This document shows, one piece after another, positions 33,030 through 56,428 of a stretch of 56,500 nucleotides of DNA. The notes beneath the pieces are model-generated. The model was not told the origin of the DNA, did not search any database, and saw only the letters and a list, made by a program, of their open reading frames with translations. Every line of letters starts with the position of its first letter. Positions within the stretch are counted from its first letter, which is position 1. The stretch is from IMG/VR virus record IMGVR_UViG_3300020578_000086, positions 1 to 56,500 of that record; one strand, given 5' to 3'. The position numbers were made by a program, and so were the translations under genes. The stretch is from a virus.

Positions 33030-33038
33030 TCCAATTCT

Positions 33039-33401: not shown

Positions 33402-33402
33402 A

Positions 33403-34134: not shown

Positions 34135-34141
34135 ATAAAGA

Positions 34142-34486: not shown

Positions 34487-34571
34487 ATTCAGCTTTCAGT
34501 TTTTTGAGAATAGCTTCATTTTTAAGAATTCTTTTTAAGTTCTTTGCCATAGTGCGCCGGTTGCGAGGCAT
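34473..34571 (-). CDS. Candidate very small basic protein (32 aa)
   Basis: A frame from ATG 34571 coding MPRNRRTMAKNLKRILKNEA then ILKKLKAEYETH. It is strongly basic and would form one amphipathic helix. Its stop overlaps the ATG region of the leader-bearing 114-residue gene, a spacing typical of coupled small phage genes. It overlaps another tiny frame (34522-34608); at most one is likely to be real. This one is favoured for its coherent helix. Confidence 0.35.
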   Translation of the reverse strand: MPRNRRTMAKNLKRILKNEAILKKLKAEYETH

Positions 34572-34608
34572 TCCCTGTTTTTCTTTTTTTGCTCTTGCCA
34601 CTACTCAT
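34522..34608 (-). CDS. Alternative tiny basic ORF (28 aa)
   Basis: An ATG at 34608, five bases after the stop of the amidoligase-like gene, opens a 28-codon frame (MSSGKSKKRKTGNASQPAHY, then GKELKKNS). It is Lys/Ser-rich with no predicted fold. It competes with the overlapping 34473-34571 frame in this 127-base gap. Listed so the gap is accounted for; real coding is uncertain. Confidence 0.25.
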   Translation of the reverse strand: MSSGKSKKRKTGNASQPAHYGKELKKNS

Positions 34609-34613
34609 AAGGG

Positions 34614-37224: not shown

Positions 37225-37238
37225 TATTTTAGATTTTT

Positions 37239-37248
37239 GTATATATCA
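37239..37248 (-). promoter_or_regulatory. Candidate late-promoter element (TGATATATAC)
   Basis: An exact minus-strand copy, 14 bases before the ATG of the S1-domain gene, in the 34-base gap after the 1528-residue gene. This spacing would give a very short untranslated leader. Confidence 0.45.
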
Positions 37249-37258
37249 TACAAGTTCT

Positions 37259-42678: not shown

Positions 42679-42709
42679 TTTTAGTTTTTAGCTTTAATAG
42701 TTTTATATT

Positions 42710-44755: not shown

Positions 44756-44768
44756 ATTAGTATATATT

Positions 44769-46361
44769 TTAACCTGTTCCAGGTACTGGCCATTCTCTTC
44801 TCTTTAAGTAAAAGATCTCGGTGTAAGATGGGACGATAGCTTTATTATTGGATATGAAGTTAGTTGAAGTAGGTAACATTGAATATGTAATCTTTATGCC
44901 GTCTACCATGTAAAAACCGCTGTAAATCTGATTGGCAACCATGTTTGCCTCAGAACCGACATCCATTACATCGGAGACTTCGTTAGGGGTAGCATTCTGC
45001 CTTCTTGCGTTTACGTTGTCTTGTGAGTAAACAAGAACAGGTATCTTTTCTCCACGATATATGTTTGGGTTCCAGCGTTCTACGTGAGCTATCAAATACA
45101 ATTTTTCTAGCTCTTCGTTATTACGAGTATTCCATAGTTCTGAATAGTAGTACTTGTCATGAACATCTTCATATTGAATACCTTGCCAATACCTCTTATA
45201 TTGTGTTTTCCAATATGTTTCTTCGGACGTACCGTCCGGTAATTTCTTAAAGGACCGCCCCTTTAGCAATATCTTTTTTTCATTCGCGCCTTCGGTAACT
45301 AGCGGATCAACAAATATGTTCCAAAACTGCAAACTTTGATAGTCAAAGATTTGCGAAAAACTTTTGTAACCCCACTTCTTAGAAACCGCTGATGAATTAT
45401 TCTCAACGCCATACTGTTTTATGAACATGTTTGTGTCTCTTAAAGATTGTATGTCAGTTAACATTTTGGCTGTAGTTGTCTGAGAATTTTCTACCATGTT
45501 ATCTTTATCATTATACAAATCCCTAAATTGTGTTACGTCTAAAAGAGCAACTTCAATCTTACCATCACCAGCAACCTGTGGGTTAACATTTACAAAGTTT
45601 AAGTGATAATAGTTATCAATAAAGACCTTGTAAAAAGATTGTTCATTTTTCCAAGCGTGGTTGGCAACATGCTTAATGAAATTATGCAATGTATCACCTG
45701 TGCATAGCCAGACTTGTGAATCATTAGTAAAAGATTCGTTGGTAGCAAAACCTAACCCCAAGTCTCCTGCAACTTTTTGTAAAACTTCAAAGGTTGTTCC
45801 ACTATATGACTTTAACACTTCATCGTGTATATGCGGAACGAAAAGTTCGCCAAAGATAGTAAGTGTCCCACCTTGCCCTTGTGACACACCTGGCGATATA
45901 TCAACTCGTGTTATTAAGAAATCATTTCTGATAGGCTTAAATGCGTCAGACTTGGCTCTAATAAAAACATTAACTAAATCACCGTCTTTTGGCACAGATG
46001 TAAACTTAAAACCTGTTTTAGTCGAGTCTAATACAATTTCTAATCTAAGAGCAGGCAAGAATCCTGTTGAATCTATCTCAAAATCGTAAATGTCACCTGT
46101 GTTAAAAACTACCGCGTTAATCATAATAAACGGATATGAAGTGCCTATATCGTTCTGAATTTGATAACCAGATTCAACACCCTTTTGGTCATAAAGATTT
46201 TCAGAAGTTCCTTGGAATGCATCTTCAATTATCATATCATCAACCTCTATCGTAGGTTTTAGCAAAGACCTAATTATGCACTCTTCTTGATTAGTGTTTC
46301 TAATTTGATTAGGATTCTCCGGCGGTTCAATAAAAAACGGGTTAACAAAGTTATCTGCCAT
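44769..46361 (-). CDS. Baseplate hub protein, gp27-like
   Basis: 530 residues (T4 gp27 has 391). Hub-family features: SYPFIMINAVVFNTGDIYDF, SVPKDGDLVNVFIRAKSDAF, a second tube-like domain LLITRVDISPGVSQ then LTIFGELFVPHIHDE, and the diagnostic FEVLQKVAGDLGLGFA followed by WLCTGDTLHNFIKHVANHAW and FYKVFIDNYYHLNFVNVN. Such proteins form the trimeric hub joining the tail tube to the spike, which is coded two genes downstream. Position between the gp53-like and gp5-like genes agrees. The ATG overlaps the stop of the gp53-like gene (TAATG). Confidence 0.85.
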   Translation of the reverse strand: MADNFVNPFFIEPPENPNQIRNTNQEECIIRSLLKPTIEVDDMIIEDAFQGTSENLYDQKGVESGYQIQNDIGTSYPFIMINAVVFNTGDIYDFEIDSTGFLPALRLEIVLDSTKTGFKFTSVPKDGDLVNVFIRAKSDAFKPIRNDFLITRVDISPGVSQGQGGTLTIFGELFVPHIHDEVLKSYSGTTFEVLQKVAGDLGLGFATNESFTNDSQVWLCTGDTLHNFIKHVANHAWKNEQSFYKVFIDNYYHLNFVNVNPQVAGDGKIEVALLDVTQFRDLYNDKDNMVENSQTTTAKMLTDIQSLRDTNMFIKQYGVENNSSAVSKKWGYKSFSQIFDYQSLQFWNIFVDPLVTEGANEKKILLKGRSFKKLPDGTSEETYWKTQYKRYWQGIQYEDVHDKYYYSELWNTRNNEELEKLYLIAHVERWNPNIYRGEKIPVLVYSQDNVNARRQNATPNEVSDVMDVGSEANMVANQIYSGFYMVDGIKITYSMLPTSTNFISNNKAIVPSYTEIFYLKRREWPVPGTG

Positions 46362-46984
46362 TACTTGTTATTATTTAGTCGGTTTTTAACTAGCCTTGCT
46401 AAGAATTCACTTTTAGAAATTGGTTCTTCACAAGCTTCTTTGCTCTTTGTAACATTAGGGCCGAAGTAGAGTTTACCGTTTCTTAATTGTATTTCTTTAT
46501 CCCCAAAGTCAGCGTAGTTAGGAGGTAAAGCATTTTCTTGCGCGGATTTTTCACCAGGTTTTTTATTTCTTTTTTCAAACTCTTTAAGTTTAGGGTCAAG
46601 CTGGGAACCTTTTTCAGGGGAAAGATATTGTTTACGAACATCTTTAATTTTTTCTGCCTGGTTTTCTTCATTTCTAAAGTTTTTGTTTAGACTGATTGGG
46701 TCATATATAACAAGAAGATCACCAGTATTGATAGCAAGAGGGTTACTTATGTCATTAAACTTAAGAATTTTTTCAATCATATCCATGTTACCGTACATTG
46801 CTTTGGATATTAAGTCTATTCTCATTGCAGTTTCATCAGTAACTAGGTAGTACTTTATACCCTTTGGCCCGTTTGAAGGGTCAACATTAAGGTCTCTATG
46901 AATAAAGTCAATATAAAACTCATTTGTTTTTTTGTCTTTAATTTCGGGTTTAGTATTCTGTGTTACGTTAAATTCAATCGGCAT
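46361..46984 (-). CDS. Baseplate wedge protein, gp53-like with LysM-like domain
   Basis: 207 residues (T4 gp53 has 196). The diagnostic stretch is IDLISKAMYGNMDMIEKILK then FNDISNPLAINTGDLLVIYD, the LysM-like pattern 'D-x-I-x-x-x-x-Y-G-x-x-x-x-x-x-I-x-x-x-N-x-I-x-N-P-x-x-i-x-x-G-d-x-L-x-i-y' of gp53 and related tail proteins. The N-terminus has a YIDFIHRDL motif; the C-terminal half is a charged, Lys-rich tail (AQENALPPNYADFGDKEI; then ARLVKNRLNNNK). gp53 clamps wedges together around the hub. It is 11 bases downstream of the 760-residue gene and coupled to the hub gene. Confidence 0.82.
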   Translation of the reverse strand: MPIEFNVTQNTKPEIKDKKTNEFYIDFIHRDLNVDPSNGPKGIKYYLVTDETAMRIDLISKAMYGNMDMIEKILKFNDISNPLAINTGDLLVIYDPISLNKNFRNEENQAEKIKDVRKQYLSPEKGSQLDPKLKEFEKRNKKPGEKSAQENALPPNYADFGDKEIQLRNGKLYFGPNVTKSKEACEEPISKSEFLARLVKNRLNNNK

Positions 46985-46995
46985 AGTCTACTTAA

Positions 46996-49278
46996 TTATT
47001 TTGACATCCATTTTACACCAGCTGCGACAGTTGCGTTATATGTATTTTTTAACCTTGGTATTACTGATTGCTTATAGTATCCTATAATGTTGTCAATTTC
47101 GCGTGGATCTCCAAGGAGTGGGTTTTTTCCTGAATACCCGCTTCTTCCACCATTATAGTATCCTTTAGCTCCACCCCTGCCTTTCCCGTTACTGTTTTTC
47201 TTAATTCCACTGCTTTCTCCCCAAGGGTTAGGACCAGTTGTTGAACCGCCTGTAGAAGAATCAACAGCACTCTGATTAAATGATGAAAAACTATTTTCAT
47301 ATCCTTTAGGAACTGAATAAATTCTACCCGATCCTTTGTTAAACATAGATTCTATACCAGCTCTATCTCTGGGCATTCCGTGTTCAAGTGAAATTGTTGC
47401 TTTTAACTCAGTAGGAAAATCATCTGGGCCAAGCTCTTCGTTAAAACTGATTTCTATACCCGTACAGATAAGATTACCAACCATCATCATCGGGTTAAGA
47501 GGATTACCTACAGTTAAGTGCCATTCTCCAACAGGATTACCCGTTAAGAGGGAGTGCATTCCCTGCATGAATCCTGATCCCGAAGTAGTATTCATTAACA
47601 TGTGTCCACTCAGCGCTCCTGCTGCGATTGATTTTAGTCCACCAATAGGATCATCAAAGAATTTTTGAAACATTTCACCCACATTTTCTATCGCTTTAGC
47701 AAATTGTTTACCAAGCGCATTAAAGAATCCGTCAACGTCACCTCTCATCCAGGCATCTCTACCTTCGCTTCCTCCTAAAAAAGGAGGAATACCACCTTGA
47801 GCAGCCGCTGGCATATAGCGGTTCATACCACCCCAGAAAGTTGCTTCATTATATGTAAGTAACATTAAATTTCCAAGTATGTCAAGTATAGCTGCTTTGG
47901 AGTTTATACCTCCAATACTTCTTGCGACATACTCAAACTGTAACTTAATCTCGTGTTTGAATGTAATACCTCGCTCACGAGCCTTTGTGCTATCAATCAC
48001 GGTAACAGGACCAAGTATTTTGTTAGCATAAGGGCCGTTGTTGTACGGATCAGGCGGTGGCCCACCACCTACAGAAGGTTTGGCTGCATTGGCACCACCC
48101 GCTAAGTAACCAAGAACGGTAGCTAAACCCGGAGCGGGACCATTTGCTGTTCCTGGGGACCCGCTAAAGCTAACTTCCCAAACATCTGCTTTAACTTCTT
48201 TCCATTTAAGACCAGCGCTGATAGGCCCAAGTATAGTTGATATTTTATTTCCAGGGTCCTCGCCTAAAAAAGTTATAGCTGTAGCAGCTGGCGTTATTTT
48301 GTCCTTTGGTATCTCTCCTTTTGCTTCAGATACCGATGAAACGTTGTCAATACAAGGAAATGTATAACGACGCAAAGTAATCATATAGTTAAGAGGGATC
48401 TTTTTCCAATACTTTAAGAAAACAAAGTCTTGGTATCGGTATGGAAATTTTGTATTACCTGGTCTTTCACACCATTCAACAAGTTGTGAAACTGTTAGGT
48501 CAGTTGTTAATCCTGAAACAGCACCACTACCTGTAGATCCTGAATTAGGATTTTGCACATTTGCTGTTACGTCATAAAAACGCGGCTGATTTTCACGATC
48601 TATCAAATACTTATTTCCTAATTTACCAGCAGCAGCCTGCAAATTAATGTAAGCATTGTAGTTCATTAATGAAGGTACACCCCAATGTTCAGGTGCCAGA
48701 TCTTTCATTTGCTTTGGAGTCACCTCAGGATTTGATGCACTAACAGGTCCGGTGTTTCCGGCCGTTGCACTTGGCACAGATACTACGAAACCTTCGGTTA
48801 AAGTCGATTGAATATCTTCGGATGTGCAAAAGCTGTAAACAACAGAACCGTCATCAGCTACATTAAAAATTAAGCGAGGGTCAAAAGGTAAAGTAGTATT
48901 TGGGCCTCCTGTTAAACCTGGAGCACTTCCGTCGTTTGTACTGGGTTCTGTGCCCTCTTCACCCGCCGCAGGCTGTGGCGGATAAACTGTTCCTGTCCCA
49001 TATACAGCTTCAAGTTTGCTATAAGCGTCATCAAAAGTAAGTCCATAATTCAAAACCCACCCTGCTTGCCCGGTTGCTCCATTTGGCTGGGTTTCAACCA
49101 GTGGACCGTCTGGACCCAACTTCATAGTGTATACGTCGGGACCGACAGACTTAACAGCAACTTTATACGGTGGGTCTTTTGGCCCGCTATACGGTGGTGA
49201 GCCTCCGGAAAGTCCAGAGTCTCTCTGAGTCCCATTTGCTTTCCCCGTAGGCCCTTTCGATTTTTTTCCGTTACCCAT
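46996..49278 (-). CDS. Virion structural protein, first gene of baseplate operon (760 aa)
   Basis: The N-terminal 130 residues are Gly/Pro/Ser/Thr-rich and probably disordered (MGNGKKSKGPTGKANGTQRD). Ordered parts include WKKIPLNYMITLRRYTFPCI, EHWGVPSLMNYNAYINLQAA, RGITFKHEIKLQFEYVARSI and, near the end, HLTVGNPLNPMMMVGNLICT then GIEISFNEELGPDDFPTELK, followed by ISLEHGMPRDRAGIESMFNK. This last block ('GNP-x-x-P-x-x-x-x-G-N-L ... LGPDDFPT-x-L') recurs in large-phage tail proteins next to hub genes and may be a tube-initiator-like beta domain. The C-terminal tail is Gly-rich. It starts the leftward operon behind a TGATATATAC element. Confidence 0.72.
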   Translation of the reverse strand: MGNGKKSKGPTGKANGTQRDSGLSGGSPPYSGPKDPPYKVAVKSVGPDVYTMKLGPDGPLVETQPNGATGQAGWVLNYGLTFDDAYSKLEAVYGTGTVYPPQPAAGEEGTEPSTNDGSAPGLTGGPNTTLPFDPRLIFNVADDGSVVYSFCTSEDIQSTLTEGFVVSVPSATAGNTGPVSASNPEVTPKQMKDLAPEHWGVPSLMNYNAYINLQAAAGKLGNKYLIDRENQPRFYDVTANVQNPNSGSTGSGAVSGLTTDLTVSQLVEWCERPGNTKFPYRYQDFVFLKYWKKIPLNYMITLRRYTFPCIDNVSSVSEAKGEIPKDKITPAATAITFLGEDPGNKISTILGPISAGLKWKEVKADVWEVSFSGSPGTANGPAPGLATVLGYLAGGANAAKPSVGGGPPPDPYNNGPYANKILGPVTVIDSTKARERGITFKHEIKLQFEYVARSIGGINSKAAILDILGNLMLLTYNEATFWGGMNRYMPAAAQGGIPPFLGGSEGRDAWMRGDVDGFFNALGKQFAKAIENVGEMFQKFFDDPIGGLKSIAAGALSGHMLMNTTSGSGFMQGMHSLLTGNPVGEWHLTVGNPLNPMMMVGNLICTGIEISFNEELGPDDFPTELKATISLEHGMPRDRAGIESMFNKGSGRIYSVPKGYENSFSSFNQSAVDSSTGGSTTGPNPWGESSGIKKNSNGKGRGGAKGYYNGGRSGYSGKNPLLGDPREIDNIIGYYKQSVIPRLKNTYNATVAAGVKWMSK

Positions 49279-49359: not shown

Positions 49360-49581
49360 ATGAATAGAAGAGTATTAAATTTTTCCGACTTTTTGGTAGA
49401 AGCTGATGAATTGGAAAAAGATCTTGTTAAGAAGAATCTTCGTGCTGAAGCTGGCGGTGAACAAGAAGAAGAAAAAGAAGAAGAAATCGACGCAGCAGAA
49501 GTTAGCGATGACGACGATGACGACGATGACGACGTCGCATCCGATGATTCCGTTGCTTCAGACGGTGGAGCAGATATCTAA
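49360..49581 (+). CDS. Small acidic protein with capsid-targeting-like leader, gp67-like
   Basis: 73 residues. The leader MNRRVLNFSDFLVE/ADELEK is a looser member of the F-L-x-E family. The mature part is very acidic: EEEKEEEIDAAEV, then a run of nine Asp in VSDDDDDDDDDVAS coded by repeated gac/gat codons. T4 gp67, the prohead-core protein, has the same plan: about 80 residues with an Asp/Glu-rich C-terminus, cut up by the gp21 protease. A prohead-core (scaffold) role is therefore suggested by analogy, not homology. First gene of the rightward cassette; 15 bases before the next leader gene. Confidence 0.75.
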   Translation: MNRRVLNFSDFLVEADELEKDLVKKNLRAEAGGEQEEEKEEEIDAAEVSDDDDDDDDDVASDDSVASDGGADI

Positions 49582-49596
49582 AAAAATTCTAACATA

Positions 49597-49938
49597 ATGA
49601 AGCACATACACACATTTGAAAACTTCTTAAATGAAGCCCTGGCTTTTGATACATCTAAACTAAAGAATATCAACTTTATCCTTCCTCCTTTTGATAAGCC
49701 GTACCAAGATGAATTCCAGATCTCCTTTGATAAAGGTGTAGATAAAGATGCAATTGAAAAAGCAATTAAAAGTGAAAAGGGCGCAGCCCGTGTAAAGTAC
49801 GAGTGGACTACAGACCCGCACGGCTCGGAAGTTCTACTGCTTAAACCTGGAAAAGATAACTCAGGTCTAACTTTCGTTTTCAGCGCAGTCGATGATTTCT
49901 ATGGTTCACACGGTGCAAGCATGGGATGGGCACTATAA
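49597..49938 (+). CDS. Small protein with capsid-targeting-like leader (113 aa)
   Basis: Leader MKHIHTFENFLNE/ALAFDT. Cleavage after FLNE would leave about 100 residues of alpha/beta type (KDAIEKAIKSEKGAARVKYE; SEVLLLKPGKDNSGLTFVFS), ending YGSHGASMGWAL. There is no known domain or catalytic motif. The ATG at 49597 is 15 bases after the acidic gene, with an A-rich leader (CTAACATA) and no Shine-Dalgarno sequence. The next leader gene follows within 15 bases. Cargo or internal-head role inferred only from the leader. Confidence 0.78.
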   Translation: MKHIHTFENFLNEALAFDTSKLKNINFILPPFDKPYQDEFQISFDKGVDKDAIEKAIKSEKGAARVKYEWTTDPHGSEVLLLKPGKDNSGLTFVFSAVDDFYGSHGASMGWAL

Positions 49939-49952
49939 AAAAACATAATAAG

Positions 49953-50264
49953 ATGAAACACCTAAAAACCTTTGAAAACTTCCTCAATGAGGCAAACGGC
50001 CTTGCATACTGGTCTGACTACGCGGAAGACACTTCTGGACAAGCAGAAGCCTGGATGAGCGAGCCTTGCACAGATATGTCACACGTTATTAAGTGTGTTG
50101 ACGATTCTATTGCTGCATGGAACAAAGCAGCAGAAGCAGACGGCGGGGACCGTGTGTCTAAACCATCAGAAAAACATATCGGTGATTTGGCAATCCGTTA
50201 TTGGAAACAGTTTAAGACTATTAACGGAAACATCATCACTGCAATGATTGCGCAAGAGTCTTGA
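49953..50264 (+). CDS. Small protein with capsid-targeting-like leader (103 aa)
   Basis: The start at ATG 49953 (MKHLKTFENFLNE/ANGLAY) is chosen over an upstream in-frame ATG at 49926 because it aligns exactly with its neighbours' leaders. After the putative cleavage site the protein is helical and aromatic (YWSDYAEDTSGQAEAWMSEP; VDDSIAAWNKAAEA), with a C-terminal helix (HIGDLAIRYWKQFKTINGN). No recognisable family. Third gene of the rightward cassette. Confidence 0.78.
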   Translation: MKHLKTFENFLNEANGLAYWSDYAEDTSGQAEAWMSEPCTDMSHVIKCVDDSIAAWNKAAEADGGDRVSKPSEKHIGDLAIRYWKQFKTINGNIITAMIAQES

Positions 50265-50289
50265 AGTAGGTACTAAAAAAAGAATTAAT

Positions 50290-50589
50290 ATGAAAAACAT
50301 TAAAACGTTTGAAGACTTTCTTGGTGATTCTACCAAAACCAATGAAGAAGCAGAAGGCAAAATGTATAAAGTATCTCTTGATACAATCATAAAGAGCGCT
50401 GAAGAAATCAAATCCCTTGTTACCGACGACCAAGATCTTGAGGCCTGGGTGCAAGACAAGATAACTATCGCTGAACACAACATGGAAGCTATTCTTGGTT
50501 ATATGAAAGGCGAAGGCGGCAAGAAGAAAATTGAAGTACCAGTTCAAGGAGATATGAAAACTGGCGGAATGTTAAAGGACGAAAACTAA
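50290..50589 (+). CDS. Small protein with degenerate leader (99 aa)
   Basis: The ATG at 50290 (MKNIKTFEDFLGD/STKTNEE) is preferred to an upstream frame start at 50248 because the leader then aligns. The last leader residue is Asp instead of Glu, so protease cleavage may be lost or altered. The core DLEAWVQDKITIAEHNMEAI then LGYMKGEG is a helical segment of a type often seen in small phage virion-associated proteins ('W-x-Q-x-K-I-x-x-A-x-x-x-I'). The C-terminus is Lys/Gly-rich. The TAA overlaps the ATG of the CapA-like gene, so the two are coupled. Confidence 0.75.
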   Translation: MKNIKTFEDFLGDSTKTNEEAEGKMYKVSLDTIIKSAEEIKSLVTDDQDLEAWVQDKITIAEHNMEAILGYMKGEGGKKKIEVPVQGDMKTGGMLKDEN

Positions 50590-51653
50590 TGCACGTTTTA
50601 CCGTTCGATAAGTTCAGCAAAGAAAAAGGCGTCTTTAAGATAGCTTTTCTTGGAGACATAATGTGTGAAGACTCCGCACTTATGTCAGTTGTCAATGATG
50701 AACCATTCCAATTCATAAAGCCGTTTCTGTATTCCACTGATTATGTTGTAGGAAATCTTGAAACAACTTTTAGTGGAGAAACGAGCAGTTATCCTAAATT
50801 TTCAACGAATGATCTGTTAGCGGATGACCTAAGTAGTTTTGTGAATCTTGTGTTTACTGCGAACAACCACTGCTATGATTTTGGAACAAAAGGAGTTGAA
50901 AGGACTATTGAAATACTGGATGAATTTGGTATAAATTACGTAGGAACTAATCCTTTACCAAAAATTCGCAGAACATTCGATGCTGACTTAAAAGGTCATA
51001 AATTATCTTTTCTAAACTATACACAATTTATTAATGAAACGAAGAAAGACCCAATTTACAAAGGAATTAATACCCCAGAAACACCAACAAACCTCATCAA
51101 TTTTTACTCTAAAACCCAAGCTCAGGAAACGATTAATCTGGCGAAGGAGAGATCTGAACTTGTCTTTGTTGGAGTCCATCAATCATCTAGAAAAAGTAAT
51201 GCAAGAGAACTCGAACGAACAAGCACCAGCGAGCAACGAGAGTTCTTGGCTTCCGTAAGTAATTTTGGCGCTGACGTAGTTATTGGTGGACATCCGCATT
51301 ACTTTCAAGGTGCAGAAATTCTTGAAGAGGGAAAGATCATTGTCTATTCACTTGGAAATTTCTTTTCTACCATGTGGAACCCTCCTCATTATACTACTAA
51401 CTGCGGGTGCATTATGATAATGTCTTGTGATGGGTTTTCAAATATAAGATATACCTTCTTACCGATAGCAACCGTTAAGAACGAAAGTAATAACCACTAC
51501 TATGTTATTCCTATCGCTACGCTTGAAGGTGGTAACTATGATTGGGTTTCTGTTAAACAGCGAGATGAACTTCTTGAAGAACTGGAAAGAATTCGTAAAA
51601 CTTTAAGAGATTGTTCTCTTATCGAGGAAGAGCTTCCGATCCACTTTTTCTAA
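50589..51653 (+). CDS. CapA-like metallophosphoesterase
   Basis: 354 residues of the CapA/PgsA (poly-gamma-glutamate synthesis) type calcineurin-like fold. Metal-site motifs in order: FLGDIM (20-25), GNLE (55-58), TANNHCYDFG (90-99), GGHPH (233-237) and SLGNF (254-258). There is no signal peptide or membrane segment, so unlike typical host CapA it should be cytoplasmic or virion-borne. In bacteria CapA acts in capsule or polyglutamate assembly; phage homologues have unknown substrates. It closes the leader-protein cassette and is coupled to the preceding gene. Its last 51 bases overlap the 3' end of a convergent gene. Family call strong, function open. Confidence 0.88.
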   Translation: MHVLPFDKFSKEKGVFKIAFLGDIMCEDSALMSVVNDEPFQFIKPFLYSTDYVVGNLETTFSGETSSYPKFSTNDLLADDLSSFVNLVFTANNHCYDFGTKGVERTIEILDEFGINYVGTNPLPKIRRTFDADLKGHKLSFLNYTQFINETKKDPIYKGINTPETPTNLINFYSKTQAQETINLAKERSELVFVGVHQSSRKSNARELERTSTSEQREFLASVSNFGADVVIGGHPHYFQGAEILEEGKIIVYSLGNFFSTMWNPPHYTTNCGCIMIMSCDGFSNIRYTFLPIATVKNESNNHYYVIPIATLEGGNYDWVSVKQRDELLEELERIRKTLRDCSLIEEELPIHFF

Positions 51654-52076
51654 AGAATCCAACCAAACTACTGGCACAGGTTCGCAATTAATCATGTGAA
51701 CCTTTTTTATTGTCGGGTAAAACAAAACTTCTTCGAAGAGTTCATAGTACTCTTCTTTTAACCACTTATCGGTTAAAAATATAATACTTTCTATTCCACG
51801 AATGTCTTGGGAAAAATGTATTACCTCCCGTATGATTTCATCATTAAACTCGGGATTGCTGTAGACAACGCCCAATAACTTTTTACTGTTGGCACCTTCT
51901 ACAATCATTTTGCGAATCTCTTCATTAACTATGAATCCTGAACATACATCTAAAGATTCTTTATCAAATCCCATCTGTTCTATTACCTCATCACTGTTAA
52001 CTATAAGATACTTTCTAAGATTTAAGAAACACTTCTTAATCTTGTTTCTATCATCAAAGGTAAGATACAAATTCAC
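51603..52076 (-). CDS. Hypothetical protein (157 aa)
   Basis: Starts with GTG at 52076, two bases after the stop of the coiled-coil gene. Alternating strands and helices (KLLGVVYSNPEFNDEIIREV; GIESIIFLTDKWLKEEYYEL) suggest a Rossmann-like alpha/beta fold, but no nucleotide-binding or catalytic motif stands out. It is last in the leftward run from 53.5 kb, and its 3' end overlaps the CapA-like gene tail to tail by 51 bases, so both 3' ends are under double coding constraint. No family recognised. Confidence 0.65.
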   Translation of the reverse strand: MNLYLTFDDRNKIKKCFLNLRKYLIVNSDEVIEQMGFDKESLDVCSGFIVNEEIRKMIVEGANSKKLLGVVYSNPEFNDEIIREVIHFSQDIRGIESIIFLTDKWLKEEYYELFEEVLFYPTIKKVHMINCEPVPVVWLDSLEKVDRKLFLDKRTIS

Positions 52077-52078
52077 TT

Positions 52079-52426
52079 CTATTGTGTGTTATTTTTAAGG
52101 CGTGATCTTTCTTCTTGCCTTAGTCTTCTTTCAGCAAGCTTAAGAGCGCGTTTTTCAGCAAATTCACGGTTTTTCTTGACATGCAATTCAGCTTCTTCAA
52201 AAGATTTACCCTCTTTCATTAAACGCTGTATGATCTCTGCATCACGATCAGCTTCTGCTTGGATTCTAGAATTTTCAACTTCTTGAAGATTTCTTAAGTG
52301 AATCTGGTTTCCGGCTTCACGCTTCTTTTTGCGAATCTCAGATTTTTCAGCTTCACTTTTGCTCTGATATTCTTTAAGGAGACCTAAGTTTTTCTCCATT
52401 TCACGACGTTGTTTATGATTATACAT
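52079..52426 (-). CDS. Highly charged coiled-coil protein (115 aa)
   Basis: Almost entirely Lys/Arg/Glu/Gln/Leu with continuous heptads: MYNHKQRREMEKNLGLLKEY, then NLQEVENSRIQAEADRDAEI, and LKLAERRLRQEERSRLKNN. A single long helix or coiled coil is expected; no membrane segment and no cysteines. It starts 8 bases inside the Nudix gene's end. Function unknown; such proteins recur next to Nudix or nucleotide genes in large phages. Confidence 0.68.
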   Translation of the reverse strand: MYNHKQRREMEKNLGLLKEYQSKSEAEKSEIRKKKREAGNQIHLRNLQEVENSRIQAEADRDAEIIQRLMKEGKSFEEAELHVKKNREFAEKRALKLAERRLRQEERSRLKNNTQ

Positions 52427-52958
52427 AATTCATTGATTTTGCGTACATATAATTGAACAATCTCAAGAATGCACTAAGGACCAATCCTTCATCTGAGATT
52501 AAGCCGTCACCGACTCTAACAAGATTAAATTCTGACAATCTCTCCTTTTTTGATCCGTCTTTCTGTGGTTTATTAATGTCTTTACCAGACACATCTACTG
52601 CAAAGATTGGTATTACCTTATCGCTATCTTTAGATGGGTAGATTGTGCCTAAAAAGATCCATTTTTCCGCATCATCAATCATATCAATACCGCTTTCTTC
52701 TAGGAGTTCTCTCTTGGCGGTAAATAGCAAACTATCATCTTCGTACTCAACGGTGCCTGTAATAAGCGTATCACAATGATTCCCTTCACGAAATTGATTA
52801 TACTCATGAAGCAAACCAATGTTTTCTATCATGCCGTTTGCTTCTACGGTAAAAGGTAAAACTGCGACTGACATATGTTTAGATCTTATACCAACATGCC
52901 CGTCAATGTCTACTACGTCGAACCACTTGTCTTCGTGTAATACTTTAGGTTGTTTCAT
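52419..52958 (-). CDS. Nudix hydrolase
   Basis: The start is taken at ATG 52958 (MKQPKVLHEDKWFDVVDID); a longer frame to 53027 would run inside the preceding gene. The Nudix box is ITGTVEYEDDSLLFTAKREL then LEESGID, with the RELLEESG catalytic core at 83-90. The spacing before the core is one residue longer than the canonical G-x5-E-x7-RE. Flanking parts (VAVLPFTVEANGMIENIGLL; WIFLGTIYPS) fit the ADP-ribose-pyrophosphatase-like subgroup. Likely substrates are nucleoside-diphosphate derivatives such as ADP-ribose, NAD metabolites or damaged NTPs. 179 residues; overlaps neighbours by 14 and 8 bases. Confidence 0.85.
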   Translation of the reverse strand: MKQPKVLHEDKWFDVVDIDGHVGIRSKHMSVAVLPFTVEANGMIENIGLLHEYNQFREGNHCDTLITGTVEYEDDSLLFTAKRELLEESGIDMIDDAEKWIFLGTIYPSKDSDKVIPIFAVDVSGKDINKPQKDGSKKERLSEFNLVRVGDGLISDEGLVLSAFLRLFNYMYAKSMNYV

Positions 52959-53502
52959 TTTTATTAGATTTTTGTTTCTTTTTAATATCTGACCAAATTT
53001 GTTTTGCTGCTTCCATGCGCATAACACTTATAGTACTTGCTAAGAACTCTAATACATGTTCTTCACCTTCTTCGTAAGAATCTGCTAAAACTTTCATCAA
53101 CTCACTTGACGGAATGTCAAGTTCAAGATCTAGTTTAATTTTGGTATTAACTTTTTTGCTGTCCAGCAAAAGACGTGATATTGGGTTTTCTGGCGCGCGA
53201 TTATTTGGTTCAAAAGGTTTATCTGCTGAGGCGTTAACCCTTTGCAATGGCGGATTATGTTGCTGAGGTAAAGGTTGAAAAGTAGGCTGTGGTTTCATCA
53301 TTTCAATGTCTACAAAACCGTCATGTTCACCCGCTACTTCAATAAAGTAATCACCTAGTAGCTCTTCATTAGCACGAGATCCGTCTTCAAAGATTAAAAA
53401 GTTTAGGTATCCGTCGTTATGGATTTCTCCATTCCATCTAACGAATTCTCCGGCTTTTTCTCCTTTAAGCCATTGAAATGTTTTTTGTGTAGTCTCTGTC
53501 AT
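52945..53502 (-). CDS. Conserved phage hypothetical protein (185 aa)
   Basis: The start is placed at ATG 53502 (MTETTQKTFQWLKGEKAGEF) because a promoter-like AAATATATAC lies 13 bases upstream and the longer frame to 53664 would overlap the neighbouring gene. The N-terminal 65 residues form a compact beta-like domain (FVRWNGEIHNDGYLNFLIFE then DGSRANEELLGDYFIEV). A Pro/Gln-rich linker (FQPLPQQHNPPLQRV) follows. The C-terminal helix region (SSELMKVLADSYEEGEEHVL) then ends in a Lys-rich tail. No named family. First gene of the leftward run that includes the Nudix hydrolase. Confidence 0.72.
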   Translation of the reverse strand: MTETTQKTFQWLKGEKAGEFVRWNGEIHNDGYLNFLIFEDGSRANEELLGDYFIEVAGEHDGFVDIEMMKPQPTFQPLPQQHNPPLQRVNASADKPFEPNNRAPENPISRLLLDSKKVNTKIKLDLELDIPSSELMKVLADSYEEGEEHVLEFLASTISVMRMEAAKQIWSDIKKKQKSNKNETT

Positions 53503-53515
53503 TTTATTTGTTTTA

Positions 53516-53525
53516 GTATATATTT
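53516..53525 (-). promoter_or_regulatory. Candidate late-promoter element (AAATATATAC)
   Basis: Minus-strand AAATATATAC, a one- or two-base variant of the recurring element, in the 28-base gap before the 185-residue gene and 13 bases from its ATG. It supports the shorter start for that gene. Confidence 0.4.
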
Positions 53526-53530
53526 CATCA

Positions 53531-53860
53531 CTAAAATTCGATGAAATGTTTGTATTCTTCATGGTATTCTTGCATCCAGAGCTCTGGAAGTCCTTGGTGG
53601 ATCCATCCGATATATTCATTCCTAAAGCCTTGAAGAAATTTTTGAATATGCCCTTCATAATCATTGTCCGCTAAGTGAAGTATGTCTATTGTTGATATCT
53701 TAAATGTATGATAAGTTCCTTGCACTCGCCAGTACATGTAAAGTATACGGTTTATGTGTTCATACCCATACTCTATGACAAGCGGTGATGTCCATTTAGG
53801 AACTTCAATGTCAAAAGTCCCTGTACCAGCTAATGTACTGAAATCTTTATGAAACGGCAT
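53531..53860 (-). CDS. Small conserved phage protein (109 aa)
   Basis: Starts MPFHKDFSTLAGTGTFDIEV; continues PKWTSPLVIEYGYEHINRIL then YMYWRVQGTYHTFKI, a beta-rich, aromatic first half, and a helical C-terminus (GHIQKFLQGFRNEYIGWIHQ). It resembles unnamed small proteins seen repeatedly in T4-like and other large phages; no catalytic motif. It begins one base after the stop of the 88-residue gene, so they share a transcript. Function unknown. Confidence 0.68.
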   Translation of the reverse strand: MPFHKDFSTLAGTGTFDIEVPKWTSPLVIEYGYEHINRILYMYWRVQGTYHTFKISTIDILHLADNDYEGHIQKFLQGFRNEYIGWIHQGLPELWMQEYHEEYKHFIEF

Positions 53861-53861
53861 G

Positions 53862-54128
53862 TTAGTTGCTTCCTTCCTTGTTAGCGATTTCTGTTTCCAT
53901 TGCAGCTACAAGCAATTCAAAAATATCTGCTCGTGATTGATTATGCAAGTTGCCGATTGCTTCAAGATCTTGACGCATCATACGAGTATTAAGAACAGCT
54001 TTGTCACCGTCCATTAATTGTATAATGATGTTATCCCAATCTTCATACTTGATATTTTTTTGTGCTTCAAGCATAAGTTTAAGATTTTCCTTTGCTTGTT
54101 CTAATTCTTTTTCGTTGTTTTGTTCCAT
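53862..54128 (-). CDS. Small helical hypothetical protein (88 aa)
   Basis: The ATG at 54128 (MEQNNEKELEQAKENLKLML) is chosen because it follows AAAGGATATCACA, the nearest thing to a Shine-Dalgarno sequence in this region, and a TATAAATA element lies 17 bases upstream; a longer frame to 54182 lacks both. The protein is nearly all helical (DIFELLVAAMETEIANKEGSN at the end). No family recognised. First gene after the terminator-like hairpin, so probably the head of a new transcript. Confidence 0.65.
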   Translation of the reverse strand: MEQNNEKELEQAKENLKLMLEAQKNIKYEDWDNIIIQLMDGDKAVLNTRMMRQDLEAIGNLHNQSRADIFELLVAAMETEIANKEGSN

Positions 54129-54145
54129 TGTGATATCCTTTGATA

Positions 54146-54153
54146 TATTTATA
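54146..54153 (-). promoter_or_regulatory. TATAAATA element upstream of 88-residue gene
   Basis: Minus-strand TATAAATA, identical to the T4 late-promoter core, 17 bases before the ATG at 54128 and downstream of a terminator-like hairpin. An A+T-rich genome will contain chance copies, so support is mainly positional. Confidence 0.35.
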
Positions 54154-54188
54154 TTCACATGTTTGTAAAGAGTTTTCTGCATAAAGAA

Positions 54189-54215
54189 ACCCGGACGATA
54201 GCGAAATCTCCGGGT
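54189..54215 (-). terminator. Rho-independent-type terminator hairpin
   Basis: ACCCGGA at 54189-54195 pairs with TCCGGGT at 54209-54215. On the minus strand the stem continues inward with GAT/ATC pairing and is followed by TTTCTTTAT, a U-rich tract in the RNA. It lies about 35 bases after the stop of the leader-bearing 109-residue gene and before the promoter-like TATAAATA of the next gene, the right place to end the upstream transcript. Confidence 0.7.
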
Positions 54216-54219
54216 CTCA

Positions 54220-54237
54220 AGTTTGTCGTAACAAACT
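54220..54237 (-). other. Second hairpin preceding the terminator
   Basis: AGTTTGT (54220-54226), loop CGTA, ACAAACT (54231-54237): a perfect 7-bp stem with a 4-base loop, 5 bases from the terminator stem on its transcriptionally upstream side. It has no U-tract of its own. It may protect the 3' end of the leader-gene mRNA or be part of a compound terminator. Confidence 0.5.
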
Positions 54238-54248
54238 CCGGTCCTACT

Positions 54249-54578
54249 TTATATACTAGATTCAAAAACGATAGAATGTTGATAACTAGGTTTATCTGAT
54301 GCTACATTGATTGTAACATTCCCTTTATGTTTAAGGATTTGTTTAAGATAATCTACGACTTGCTTAGGTTTTCTAGGAAATCCATTGGCTCCTCTTAATC
54401 CAGCACCATACAACCAACTTGGAAGATTGTCTGCCGATATGTTAGGATCCTTAATGAATTCTTGAATATCTTTATCGGTGTATGTATGTTGTTTATTACC
54501 GTAAGTGATAACGGTAATTTTCTTTCCTTCATTTAAATTCTCATTTAAGAATTCTTCGAAAAGTTTAATGTATGCCAT
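54249..54578 (-). CDS. Small protein with capsid-targeting-like leader (109 aa)
   Basis: Leader MAYIKLFEEFLNE/NLNEGKK: the F-L-N-E core is followed at once by N-L-N-E-G, giving two overlapping candidate cleavage sites of the L-x-E type. The mature part has a strand (KITVITYGNKQHTYTDKDIQ), a helix (KPKQVVDYLKQILKHKGNVT) and a C-terminal strand. NLPSWLYGAGLRGANGFPRK in the middle is the most distinctive stretch; no family recognised. An AGATATATAG element lies 19 bases before the ATG, and two hairpins follow the stop, so it is probably a single-gene transcript. Confidence 0.76.
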   Translation of the reverse strand: MAYIKLFEEFLNENLNEGKKITVITYGNKQHTYTDKDIQEFIKDPNISADNLPSWLYGAGLRGANGFPRKPKQVVDYLKQILKHKGNVTINVASDKPSYQHSIVFESSI

Positions 54579-54597
54579 CTTTAAAGAGTTATTTTGA

Positions 54598-54607
54598 CTA
54601 TATATCT
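54598..54607 (-). promoter_or_regulatory. Candidate late-promoter element (AGATATATAG)
   Basis: Minus-strand AGATATATAG, 19 bases before the ATG at 54578. It overlaps the last base of the stop codon of the GAF-like gene upstream and matches the recurring element at the TATATA core. Confidence 0.4.
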
Positions 54608-55032
54608 TATTTGAACTTGTGTATCAATCCCATTGTTCCCGAAATATAAGCAGCCGTGTCTAAGATCAACTCTTGTTGATCTTTTGTAAAAACTCTTGCT
54701 TCTTTTACAAATTCGACGCCCAGCGAGCCGTGAAGTTTGCCGCTAGGAGTTTTGAGAGATGCTATGAATACGGATCTACATCCTGTGCCTTCTGCCGTGT
54801 CTCTTAACCCAAATGTTGGGCGTATTTCGTCTGCCATGTTGTCAATGCAAAGATAATCATTATCGTGAATCTCTTTGAGACTTCTGCTAAAGAAGCTTGT
54901 CGGTATGTTTTGAAACTTTTCCCTAATGGTAGAAACTCCTATTGATACGGTTTCATAAAATATGCTAAACTTTTTGATAGAAACCCCAGAAGTGTAATAG
55001 TGTCCCCCGTTATGAAATTGCGCGATCCACAC
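54607..55032 (-). CDS. GAF-like domain protein, N-terminus lost to a frame break
   Basis: Coordinates use the first canonical start, GTG at 55032, but that is inside the domain: the same frame is open to 55098 and reads, before the GTG, INEQLEYLIKEIDCDR, which joins smoothly to VWIAQFHNGGHYYTSGVSIK. The rest (CRSVFIASLKTPSGKLHGSL, then a C-terminal helix) fits a GAF-like sensor or ligand-binding fold. From memory, T4-like phages carry single proteins of a membrane helix followed by this 'DRxWIxQFHNGGxxY' domain. Here the helix is coded in the next frame (55080-55226). Either a one-base indel or frameshifted expression must be involved, since no ATG, GTG or TTG starts the complete domain. Confidence 0.65.
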   Translation of the reverse strand: MWIAQFHNGGHYYTSGVSIKKFSIFYETVSIGVSTIREKFQNIPTSFFSRSLKEIHDNDYLCIDNMADEIRPTFGLRDTAEGTGCRSVFIASLKTPSGKLHGSLGVEFVKEARVFTKDQQELILDTAAYISGTMGLIHKFK

Positions 55033-55079
55033 TCTATCACAATCAATCTCTTTGATAAGATATTCTAACTGTTCGTTTA

Positions 55080-55226
55080 TCAGTATGTCAATTCCATCTC
55101 ACGATACATAGTATCTTCATTTTCGCTACGGCCTTTCATCTTTGCCTTAATATACTCAACCAATGCTGGACCTACGATCGCGGTTATCACAGCCACGATT
55201 ATAGTAACTATCAATGTAATTTCCAT
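55080..55226 (-). CDS. Small membrane protein, probable N-terminal half of the split GAF protein (48 aa)
   Basis: The ATG at 55226 (MEITLIVTIIVAVITAIVGP) starts a 48-residue frame with one transmembrane helix at about 3-25, then a charged stretch (ALVEYIKAKMKGRSENEDTM, YREMELTY). A -1 shift near the GAA codon at the end would read M-E-I-D-I-L-I-N-E-Q and continue into the GAF-like domain. The longer frame from a GTG at 55316 (MEDTLSQRLQTTRIRR) is less likely. If the break is real, it is a single-span protein whose cytoplasmic partner is separate; a holin-like role is a weaker alternative. Confidence 0.6.
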   Translation of the reverse strand: MEITLIVTIIVAVITAIVGPALVEYIKAKMKGRSENEDTMYREMELTY

Positions 55227-55233
55227 ATCTTTT

Positions 55234-55332
55234 TTACCGGCCTTGGCCTTTGTACTTTTTAACGTAATTCTTCGAATTCTTGTTGTTTGTAGTCTTTGAC
55301 TTAGCGTGTCTTCCACAAAGTTTTTTAGTCTT
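55234..55332 (-). pseudogene. Small basic reading frame without start codon (32 codons)
   Basis: In the 98 bases between the membrane-protein gene and the 64-residue gene, one frame reads KTKKLCGRHAKSKTTNNK then NSKNYVKKYKGQGR and a stop. A short basic protein with a G-R-H-x-K-S-K region and a C-terminal Y-x-GQGR looks like small proteins of large phages, from memory. But the frame has no ATG, GTG or TTG and is closed upstream by TAG at 55333-55335. It may be a remnant, use a rare start, or need a one-base correction. Low confidence. Confidence 0.3.
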
Positions 55333-55519
55333 CTAATTTAGCGAGTCCTTTTTCTACCGCCAATTCAGCATTAGCTTTTGAAAGAATAAGCGCCATCTTG
55401 TGACCGTCCTTAGTTACACCTTTTGCGATATAACCGCCTTTAGAAGTTCGAGAAATTACAGCTTCGTGCATTTCTTCCTTTTGTTTTGTCTTTAGACAAT
55501 ACGCGATGATTTGATCCAT
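55325..55519 (-). CDS. Small conserved protein, DUF5679-like without cysteines (64 aa)
   Basis: Begins MDQIIAYCLKTKQKEEMHEA; then ISRTSKGGYIAKGVTKDGHK and MALILSKANAELAVEKG. The 'AYC-x-K-x-K-x-x-x-x-M-x-x-A ... G ... G-x-K-M' layout is reminiscent of small zinc-ribbon-like phage/archaeal proteins (DUF5679), but only one Cys remains, so the metal site appears lost. Such proteins are often topoisomerase- or DNA-associated by annotation only. It follows the 297-residue leader gene by 15 bases. Function unknown. Confidence 0.65.
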   Translation of the reverse strand: MDQIIAYCLKTKQKEEMHEAVISRTSKGGYIAKGVTKDGHKMALILSKANAELAVEKGLAKLED

Positions 55520-55534
55520 GTTATTGGTTTTTTG

Positions 55535-56428
55535 TTAGTAATTTATTTTTTTGTAATCTGCAATGTCTTTTAGTTCGGCTGTAGGTAATACTTCAATTTT
55601 CTTTAGTATTACGTTTCTTACGTTTGCTAAATCATTAATTTCTTTTTCTGAAAGACCTGCAATAGTATAAGTTTCGCCAACAGAAAAACCAAGAGTAGAA
55701 AGCTTTTTTGCACTGTCGAGAGATTCCCAATACTTGCTATCTAATGGCTGATTTGTATTAAATGTTGCAACACAATTATCCCAAAGAGTTTTTGCGTCTA
55801 TTGGGGAAGTTTTTTCAATTACGCAGCTTTCGCCACTAGTATAAACAGCAGCAATTGAATACTTTCCTGACATAGCGTCAGGTGGAGTGTTTTCTTTAAG
55901 TTTCTTAAATTGTTCAGGCTTGTCTTTATCCATGGTAGAAGATAAGCCATTTGAAAAAAGAATACTTAATATCTGATTAATTTTAATTGCAGACATACTT
56001 AATACACCAGAAAAACCAGCCTTTTTAGAAGCTTTTACTGATATCTTTTCATCTCCTTTACTTACGTCAGAAAAAATCGAATCAGCGCCTGCTGCTCCAA
56101 CAGCCGTAGGATTAGTTTGTTGCCCGCCTAATACTTTTTCAACTATATGTTCAGCTATTGTTGAAGTTCTAATTCCACCTACTGCTGTATCTTTAGCGTT
56201 TGTTCCAAGATTTGTAACAAACGTATGAAAAAAGTTTGCTTCATTCAAAAGAGGCCCGTCATCAGCAGCAAACTTCTTATCTTTCAAGATATCACTATAA
56301 GAAATTGTTGCCCCAGCCTTAGCACCGCTTGATCCTATATACTGTGTTAAGAACTGAAAAATGTTTTGTGCATTAACAGATTCATTAACAGATTCATTCA
56401 AGAAAGATTCGTAATCTAGAAGACCCAT
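55535..56428 (-). CDS. Leader-bearing protein with nuclease-like SVKAS patch (297 aa)
   Basis: The N-terminus MGLLDYESFLNE/SVNESVNAQ carries the F-L-x-E leader followed by a duplicated NESV unit. It is the largest member of the leader family. The middle reads ADSIFSDVSKGDEKISVKAS then KKAGFSGVLSMSAIKINQIL. An acidic residue followed by [hydrophobic]-S-V-K, and a downstream Ser-rich turn, recalls the D...(D/E)-x-K core of PD-(D/E)XK nucleases, but other folds could give this pattern. No membrane segment. If the leader targets it to the head, it would be the best candidate in the window for a packaged enzyme delivered with DNA. Nuclease assignment is tentative. Confidence 0.72.
   Translation of the reverse strand: MGLLDYESFLNESVNESVNAQNIFQFLTQYIGSSGAKAGATISYSDILKDKKFAADDGPLLNEANFFHTFVTNLGTNAKDTAVGGIRTSTIAEHIVEKVLGGQQTNPTAVGAAGADSIFSDVSKGDEKISVKASKKAGFSGVLSMSAIKINQILSILFSNGLSSTMDKDKPEQFKKLKENTPPDAMSGKYSIAAVYTSGESCVIEKTSPIDAKTLWDNCVATFNTNQPLDSKYWESLDSAKKLSTLGFSVGETYTIAGLSEKEINDLANVRNVILKKIEVLPTAELKDIADYKKINY
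56372..56395 (+). repeat. Direct 12-bp repeat (2 copies of attaacagattc)
   Basis: Two perfect tandem copies of attaacagattc coding NESV-NESV right after the leader of the 297-residue protein. Slippage here would change the spacing between the putative leader cleavage site and the mature protein without breaking the frame. Confidence 0.85.

Follow-up and report, generated by a model that had tools for sequence, protein, structure and literature searches.

The window analysed here, the whole 56,500-nucleotide stretch of the virus record IMGVR_UViG_3300020578_000086, carries seven genes whose products start with similar short leader peptides and continue into unrelated bodies. A sequence-only reading had named these N-termini as T4-like capsid-targeting leaders, and each of the seven was found at its position with the expected peptide. 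On the plus strand, MNRRVLNFSDFLVE/A (49360..49401; the slash marks the candidate cleavage point) opens gene 49360-49581, whose mature part of 59 residues is 46% Asp/Glu; MKHIHTFENFLNE/A (49597..49635) opens gene 49597-49938; MKHLKTFENFLNE/A (49953..49991) opens gene 49953-50264, which has body homologues in the related records G006 and G008; and the variant MKNIKTFEDFLGD/S (50290..50328), with Asp rather than Glu at the P1 position, opens gene 50290-50589, whose body has homologues in G009 (starting MSIASFGEFKKTLNE), G005 and G033. On the minus strand, MKHIKTFENFLNE/G (34448..34486) opens gene 34142-34486, and its acidic mature part (34142..34447, 101 residues, net charge -14, no Pfam match) is kept together with the leader in G009 and G005. 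Also on that strand, MAYIKLFEEFLNE/N (54540..54578) opens gene 54249-54578 and is directly followed by a second site, NLNE/G, and MGLLDYESFLNE/S (56393..56428) opens gene 55535-56428 and is followed by a second site, SVNE/S. All seven gene starts are real; 49953 and 50290 turned out to be internal ATGs of slightly longer open reading frames (ORFs) opening at 49926 (ATG) and 50248 (TTG).

The bodies are as unrelated as had been claimed, with no mutual match at E 0.01 or better. Searches of the seven proteins against Pfam and PHROGs gave no significant family (PHROG lines at E 0.013-0.081 were weak and unused), and the net charge is negative in six of them. The 297-residue product of gene 55535-56428 has a close relative only in the window's own near-identical record and no sequence match in the PDB; a first reading of this protein, by eye only, as a PD-(D/E)xK nuclease is not claimed.

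When the 236 window ORFs of at least 40 residues were scanned for the motif within their first 40 residues, eight matched, the seven named genes and the ORF 38974-39108 (minus strand), which sits within the large gene 37259-41845. With a stricter, Glu-only core ([FYW]xx[FYW][LIVMFTSA]xE within 17 residues of the start), 7 of 43 window ORFs matched, and 200 internal or shuffled control draws averaged 0.21 matches and reached 2 at most, which rules out chance as the origin of the leaders. These seven are six of the named genes, scoring 16.8-28.1 bits by a leader matrix, and one chance match, the N-terminus (MHVLPFDKFSKE, loose core FDKFSKE, just 4.3 bits) of a PGA_cap-type protein (50589-51653, plus strand; PF09587, 152.5 bits) encoded directly 3' of the leader gene cluster. 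Gene 50290, with FLGD/S, falls outside all Glu-only counts. In T4 internal protein (IP) III, Asp at this position blocks processing and leaves targeting unaffected, according to the accessible text of PMC9026906; because Asp replaces Glu at P1, the product of gene 50290 is possibly targeted yet uncut.

Distribution and constraint of the leader peptide

Leaders of this kind recur in related records. A scan of IMG/VR with the pattern MKHxKTFExFxNE returned 34 stretches, many with additional leader genes in tandem. Counted over whole records with a score threshold, leader genes number 19 in G009, 16 in G005, 35 in G008, 19 in G001, 25 in G006, 25 in G033, 22 in LR756500, 6 in the window and 14 in the first 320 of the 636 kb of LR756504, so that seven related records hold 16-35 each. 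The 83.7 kb record G022, which is 99.97% identical to the window across 56,424 bases, holds two more at its positions 25707 and 26532, just beyond the end of the window, as the sequence-only reading had anticipated. The core lies near the start in 21/163 ORFs of G009, 17/221 of G005, 35/351 of G008, 19/110 of G001 and 26/693 of LR756500, in each case above all 200 control draws. The corresponding counts in T4, PTm1 and PA5oct do not exceed their 200 control draws, and the leader matrix picked none of 318 ORFs in PTm1 and none of 467 in PA5oct; the PA5oct record labels genes detected by electrospray tandem mass spectrometry (ESI-MS/MS), yet it is, like PTm1, without leader ORFs. At the DNA level, a fixed-spacing pattern gave 166 matches in 32 records (18 of them matched; G033 and G034 overlap) against 14 with the reversed pattern, and it had zero matches in eight marine phage records with a related cargo domain. 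A tblastn search with four joined leader peptides gave marginal matches only.

The peptide itself is rather fixed. Of 117 leaders, 85 have the Glu at position 13, and at P1' there is Ala in 30, Ser in 26 and Gly in 21 (77/117 together). A second site of the form [LIVMF]NE[AGSN] occurs 10 times in the 3276 residues that make up the 28 positions after each leader, compared with 12 times in 18,195 residues of the rest of the leader proteins and 16 times in 40,768 residues of the matching part of other ORFs. In LR756500, the pattern is kept with other residues, as MKYIxEYEEF[LI]xE.

One could suppose that the likeness lies at the DNA or RNA level, as a translation start element or a recombination hot spot, or that it reflects recent tandem duplication, with the peptide being functionless. 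Clustering of leader genes would suit such an origin, and an excess of adjacent pairs at p <= 0.0015 was found in G009, G008, G001, G006, G033 and LR756500, although not in the window (0.13), G005 (0.28) or LR756504 (0.31); so would the excess of identical codons in G006 (0.572 vs 0.463 expected) and G008 (0.643 vs 0.584). Codon identity is, however, at or near the codon-usage expectation in six other records (0.543 vs 0.536 in the window), which indicates that the peptide rather than the DNA is conserved. The codons of the Phe at position -3 are mixed (TTT 56, TTC 47), the residues of LR756500 differ under the same pattern, and most bodies are unrelated, all of which makes an origin in the nucleic acid or in duplication very improbable.

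The tie to T4 comes from the leader matrix, which was built without T4 data and yet selects three of 275 T4 ORFs, ipII and ipIII at 21.3 bits each and gene 61.1 at 18.2 bits; no other T4 ORF with the core reaches 10 bits. The earlier statement that T4 IPs begin MKTYQEFIAE/A was borne out for ipII and ipIII, while ipI was not recovered by the motif and not read. The T4 capsid targeting sequence directs proteins to the prohead core, where gp21 removes the tag, and in IPIII targeting depends mainly on residues 4 and 7 and processing on residues 8 and 10, as far as described in the accessible text (PMC9026906). At these four positions MKTYQEFIAE has Tyr, Phe, Ile and Glu, spaced as in the leader core. 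Gene 61.1 (NC_000866, 18966-19130) starts MKTFKEFIKE/D, and its product is, from this N-terminus, possibly an unrecognised T4 internal protein.

Bodies carried behind the leader

The 183 leader proteins of ten sampled records, two of them of the same phage, fall into 119 body families, of which 22 occur in at least two records and 91 are singletons. With 118 of the 119 families represented in Pfam and PHROG searches (four leader proteins straddle locus ends), Pfam at E 1e-4 gave 31 families; 25 of these were listed, all with a single matching member. The matches include PNK 3'-phosphatase (LR756500), cREC (G001), cytidylyltransferase-like, RimK ATP-grasp, LicD, leucine-rich repeat (LRR), DUF285 repeat and FMN reductase families. 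Five related leader proteins of G033 (G033:C1:174543-177442 and 181335, minus strand) are probably the source of the DUF285 match, and five related, LRR-like leader proteins of LR756500 probably that of the LRR matches. The sequence-only reading implied that clearly cytoplasmic replication enzymes would not bear the leader; none was found among 25 of the 31 Pfam families and 22 PHROGs, with a glutamyl-tRNA synthetase in LR756504 as an awkward case. This protein (263081-264682, plus strand; tRNA-synt_1c) has a leader-like N-terminal extension scoring 17.1 bits and is either packaged or a false positive.

Three families deserve description. Leader proteins of the relatives that qualify, by sequence, as NMN adenylyltransferase-like (NMNAT-like) match PF01467 at 31.4 bits (cut-off 21) and the structure 1F9A (MJ0541, which we take to be an NMNAT) at E 7.9e-4 across 38 residues. 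Because the latter match starts at query residue 21 and chain residue 4, the leader is an N-terminal addition. A leader-like N-terminus is found on this protein in G009, G005, G001, G033, G006 and the loci L009 and L012 and is divergent in G008; the relative in LR756500 is part of a 653-residue protein without a leader. In a second family of 440 residues, which is ligase-like, K76, D78 and G79 of the motif KxDG are invariant in 50 of 50 members. Its model (pLDDT 77) has nine RNA ligases at ranks 1-9 in Foldseek, with a best E of 0.029 that is below clear significance, and in VIA a best Z of 8.2 with a root-mean-square deviation of 4.8 over 186 aligned residues; VIA rows lacking ligases were given no weight against any fold. 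Pfam and PHROGs gave no match for this family, and PDB sequence searches gave only chance-level colicin lines; the PHROG RNA-ligase match among the 118 representatives does not come from it. The strict core lies upstream in 12 of 23 jumbo-group loci, with variant leaders recognizable by eye in the rest, and in none of 55 other loci, where the domain is mostly at the end of longer ORFs. At L254 and L255 (G033:C1:75249-76988, minus strand), the ligase-like gene is longer, being interrupted after the Lys of KxDG by an intein-like insertion (EKC LSGDTIV) that points to the active site. Lastly, a 184-residue leader protein of LR756504 is read as a 2H phosphoesterase, a prediction made because 2_5_RNA_ligase2 (41.8 bits) outscores Acb1 (PF23474, 29.6 bits, cut-off 27); a PDB sequence search with it gave no match.

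The tag is gained or lost as a module because a body with the cREC domain has a leader in G001 and none in G005, G006, G008, G033 or LR756500. In G001, a 650-residue ORF (G001:C1:97328-99280, minus strand) starts with a leader, and within its last sixth lies another complete in-frame leader, MKHIQDFESFLNE/A, which would suit a fusion of two cargo proteins or the loss of a stop codon. Given the cargo of the relatives, it is plausible that the seven bodies of the window are anti-host or anti-defence proteins.

A leader that targets the prohead core need not mark injected helpers, since its cargo could instead be structural parts of the core or assembly aids that are removed by the protease. The short, acidic mature part of the 49360 product resembles in size and acidic tail a T4 core protein of 80 residues with a FLIE/G site that we take, from its position, to be gp67, a resemblance only; several other leader proteins are strongly acidic too (56% Asp/Glu in that of G033 47509). 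A role in head morphogenesis has also been suggested for IPIII (PMC9026906, in part). On the other hand, the number of body families and the share of singletons among them are far greater than a core structure needs, and among the bodies are several enzymes that act in RNA or nucleotide metabolism. Moreover, the T4 proteins Ip1-3 are described as injected restriction inhibitors that block GmrSD and have the leader alone in common (PMC12373910, in part), and IPIII was already known as an injected restriction inhibitor with a shared leader (PMC9391042, in part). Cargo consisting of core parts or assembly aids is therefore a possible but doubtful account of the leader proteins.

Prohead protease, scaffold repeats and shell protein in relatives

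The expected gp21-type prohead protease is present in leader-rich relatives but absent from the window fragment. Peptidase_S77, the gp21 family, was above cut-off in 6 of 34 records (4/10, 2/23 further, and 0/1 for the window), many of these records being fragments, and T4 scored as the positive control. The positives include the 142.9 kb record G009, which is collinear with the window and holds homologues for 32 of its 43 ORFs (median identity 45%). The protease frame is mostly about 580-720 residues long, and because one tblastn match spans both gp21 and gp22 of T4-type phages, it is predicted to be a gp21-type protease and a gp22-like scaffold fused in one protein. The Gp23 shell protein profile matched in 5 of 7 records, and the shell gene adjoins the fusion in G009, G008 and LR756500. 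Six aligned proteins keep two candidate cleavage sites, [IV]NE[SA] behind the protease domain and [VLI]NE close to the C-terminus, save that the first is ISES in PTm1. A shell protein was found at 71 of 80 loci. In 70 of them it has [IL]NE among its first ten residues, and 70 have L[NY]E between residues 31 and 60; in the exception, L130, both sites are present after a later, likelier start. At the first of these shell-protein sites, Glu is often followed by Ala, Ser, Gln or Asn, and at the second by Ser or Gly.

A second, short Peptidase_S77-like ORF in LR756500 (154840-155244, minus strand; 18.6 bits, below cut-off) is perhaps a diverged protease paralogue. A small protein in G009 (C1:18425-19102, minus strand) and G005 (C1:89220-89906, minus strand) has an internal leader-like segment and a stretch NTPGMGNVxPA..GSGD that resembles the region directly after the second candidate cleavage site of the shell protein.

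The scaffold half contains tandem 14-residue repeats, e.g. IDYSNYLAESLDKS, which were first noticed by eye in G009 and tested afterwards. In G009, the scaffold has six internal leader-like matches and no other of the 163 ORFs has more than two. By a looser motif, the scaffolds of five leader-bearing phages have 10, 5, 7, 7 and 7 matches, with 0.10-0.25 expected, and those of PTm1, PA5oct and T4 gp22 have none; the scaffold of LR756504 has 11 repeat units, where the shuffle maximum is 3. In IMG/VR, leader-like tandem repeats of 14 residues were seen in 80 of the 80 scaffolds taken as the best 80 of 549 relatives; the lowest count in them is 4, which is also the highest that shuffling produced for any of the scaffolds. 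Of 2629 motif pairs not more than 70 residues apart, 2478 are spaced by multiples of 14. In 5 of 9 records, the matches to a strict repeat DNA pattern form a single cluster in the genome with spacings that are multiples of 42 bases; there were none in PTm1, PA5oct, Lak-B5 or LR756500, the last being missed because its repeats are a variant. Leaders and repeats have in common the frame aromatic-x-x-aromatic-[LIV]-x-E, but they differ at a place to which a protease should be sensitive, the residue after Glu being mostly Ala, Ser or Gly in leaders and mostly Asn, Gln or Lys in repeats. We infer from this docking of the leader as an additional scaffold repeat, followed by its cleavage. The leader is thus, on sequence grounds, probably a scaffold-repeat mimic combined with a protease site. 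In line with this, a matrix built from 339 repeat units alone ranked leader ORFs above others, with an area under the curve (AUC) of 0.991 in the window, where leader ORFs hold 5 of the first 6 ranks, and of 0.919-0.980 in another eight records. It also placed ipIII and ipII at the top of the 275 T4 ORFs with 10.4 bits, the third scoring 1.1.

Several observations weigh against a leader that imitates the scaffold and loads cargo into the head. The positives for the AUC of the repeat matrix were defined with the leader core and the repeats with a similar one, and column-permuted matrices, with means of 0.48-0.61, rose as high as 0.92 in the window, a small set. The repeat matrix gave 14.0 bits, more than for T4, to the N-terminus (MRKFKSIKDFSKYLKE) of a PTm1 ORF (AP019524, 143038-143262, plus strand), a chance match given that PTm1 is without leaders or such repeats, so that a single high score is not proof; the next PTm1 ORF scored 6.5 and the best of PA5oct 4.1. 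By the leader matrix, the scaffold was tied for top in internal matches in G008 and not singled out in LR756500. Preferences at positions -3 and -1 are Phe and Asn in leaders and Tyr or His and Ala in repeats, and the AlphaFold model of the repeat region as one long helix has low confidence (pLDDT 53). Of 21 records with scaffold repeats (53-151 kb), 11 have no fixed-spacing leader match, so that repeats do not guarantee leaders; conversely, Lak-B5 (MK250024) has three such matches (control 0) and a scaffold without repeats by eye. Repeat mimicry cannot be the sole docking mode, either, because T4 has the leader and no gp22 repeats, and this together with the 11 records without leaders makes the repeat-leader link suggestive rather than proven. 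With regard to the cargo, leaders occur on a glutamyl-tRNA synthetase and an FMN-reductase-like protein, and variant leaders are present in part of the 50 homologues that had not been counted as leader genes. The mature parts are not basic, with a median net charge near zero or negative, whereas T4 IPs are described as basic (PMC9026906, in part), and we count basic charge as a trait of T4 IPs and not of the tag. Finally, the 56.5 kb window fragment has no protease and scaffold of its own, and no virion proteomics of a leader-bearing phage was among the literature matches listed.

This last point would equally suit a leader that serves as a localisation or docking tag for a target other than the head, such as a replication compartment, a membrane or another assembly, and the NMNAT-like, RNA-ligase-like and glutamyl-tRNA synthetase bodies would also fit a cytoplasmic compartment. 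A target outside the head, however, leaves several things unexplained: the recovery of T4 ipII and ipIII by the leader model, the position of the best internal matches of G009 in its head scaffold, and the Glu followed by a small residue. PTm1 and PA5oct, furthermore, have different scaffolds and no leader ORFs. We regard such a target as improbable and prefer the prohead.

As for its genome context, the window includes tail and baseplate genes and represents part of a jumbo phage genome, an assignment made because of a tail/baseplate block (31335..49278, minus strand) that contains a gp6-like gene (31335-33029), a hub-like gene (41845-42678), a tail-protein-like gene (46361-46984) and a single leader gene, that at 34142-34486. 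Among the matches listed, protein identity to the closest relatives is 28-41%; these are huge uncultured phages, Prevotella Lak phages and Tenacibaculum phages. At the DNA level, the first 25 kb of the window had no match in 50,697 phage records. A tandem pair of related ORFs (20774-21202 and 21160-21624, plus strand), SET-domain-like by eye, has one homologue in G009.

Interpretation and comparison with known systems

The claim of a T4-like targeting and cleavage leader stood up in that two separate models recover ipII and ipIII, the relatives encode the machinery, and G009 links that machinery to the window by collinearity. It is very likely that the leader is a targeting and cleavage leader. 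That it docks by mimicry of scaffold repeats seems somewhat more likely than not, and the chances that the leader proteins are injected helpers appear about even. Taken as a whole, the explanation that many unrelated proteins of a group of jumbo phages bear the leader as a tag for head targeting and maturation, of the T4 capsid-targeting-sequence type, is likely.

A more specific proposal, to which we give an even chance, is that the leader is a detached scaffold-repeat unit. A 13-residue repeat-like helix with a small residue after Glu would make any protein a head cargo, and this open loading system would bring a pre-made kit into the host at infection, with RNA-repair, NAD and cyclic-phosphate enzymes among its contents. 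The broader explanation is proposed to work in three steps. In the first, the core aromatic-x-x-aromatic-[LIV]-x-E would imitate one 14-residue repeat of the phage's own gp21-gp22 protease-scaffold, and the tagged protein would be built into the prohead core, replacing or lying beside a scaffold repeat. The fused gp21-type protease would next cut after the leader Glu, where leaders mostly have one of the small residues Ala, Ser and Gly, as is often so at the candidate sites of the shell protein, in contrast to the Asn, Gln or Lys favoured in scaffold repeats. The freed body would then remain in the head with the DNA and enter the next cell, where early-acting enzymes or inhibitors might help the phage. 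The first two steps have their basis in the leader and repeat sequences; binding, cutting, packaging and injection are what these sequences suggest. To our knowledge, the way in which capsid-targeting-sequence cargo recognizes the prohead core is unsettled even in T4, and the match between repeat and leader names a concrete, testable docking partner for the cargo.

The tag may allow one to read from DNA alone which proteins such viruses bring into the cell. If the proposal is true, the packaged proteins of uncultured jumbo phages could be listed from sequence, and such a list would highlight enzymes that possibly act in the first moments of infection, before phage gene expression. The 119 body families would then be candidates for counter-defence or host take-over, and the leaders would supply short natural tags with which proteins could be loaded into phage heads.

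What is new here is the occurrence of the tandem leader-like repeats throughout the 80 scaffolds; no paper tying a capsid targeting sequence to these phages or to scaffold repeats was among the matches listed, in a search outside of which most subscription journals lie. A varied use of the capsid tag by T4-like phages has already been proposed (PMC9026906, in part), and, as of 2017, a gp22 counterpart was unconfirmed in any giant phage according to the accessible text of PMC5694885.

Like T4 IPI-IPIII, the leader genes combine an N-terminal aromatic-x-x-F-[LI]-x-E followed by a small residue with unrelated bodies. They differ in that the Glu is mostly residue 13 rather than residue 10, that seven related records hold 16-35 leader genes each rather than three IPs, and that the cargo is not basic and includes enzymes. 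The relatives resemble the T4 set of gp21, gp22 and gp23 in their Peptidase_S77 domain and Gp23 profile matches. In contrast to T4, their protease and scaffold form one protein, whose scaffold half has tandem 14-residue repeats that have no match in T4 gp22, and the candidate sites of the shell protein lie near residues 7 and 45, where the T4 counterpart is at 65. A survey of counter-defence enzymes in jumbo phages lists RNA repair, cREC, 2H and NAD systems (PMC7824862), and in its accessible text the terms "capsid-targeting" and "capsid targeting sequence" do not occur; several of its enzyme classes, as far as that text goes, are the same as ours, but here such enzymes carry a head leader. 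In SPN3US, a giant Salmonella phage of the phiKZ type, N-terminal propeptides of head proteins are removed by cleavage after Glu, with a preference for Ser at P1' (PMC10052503, in part), which resembles what is proposed for the leaders. SPN3US has, however, nine substrates according to that text, with propeptides mostly of 111-254 residues and two of 20 and 24, whereas the leaders described here are short and borne by a large and varied set of proteins.

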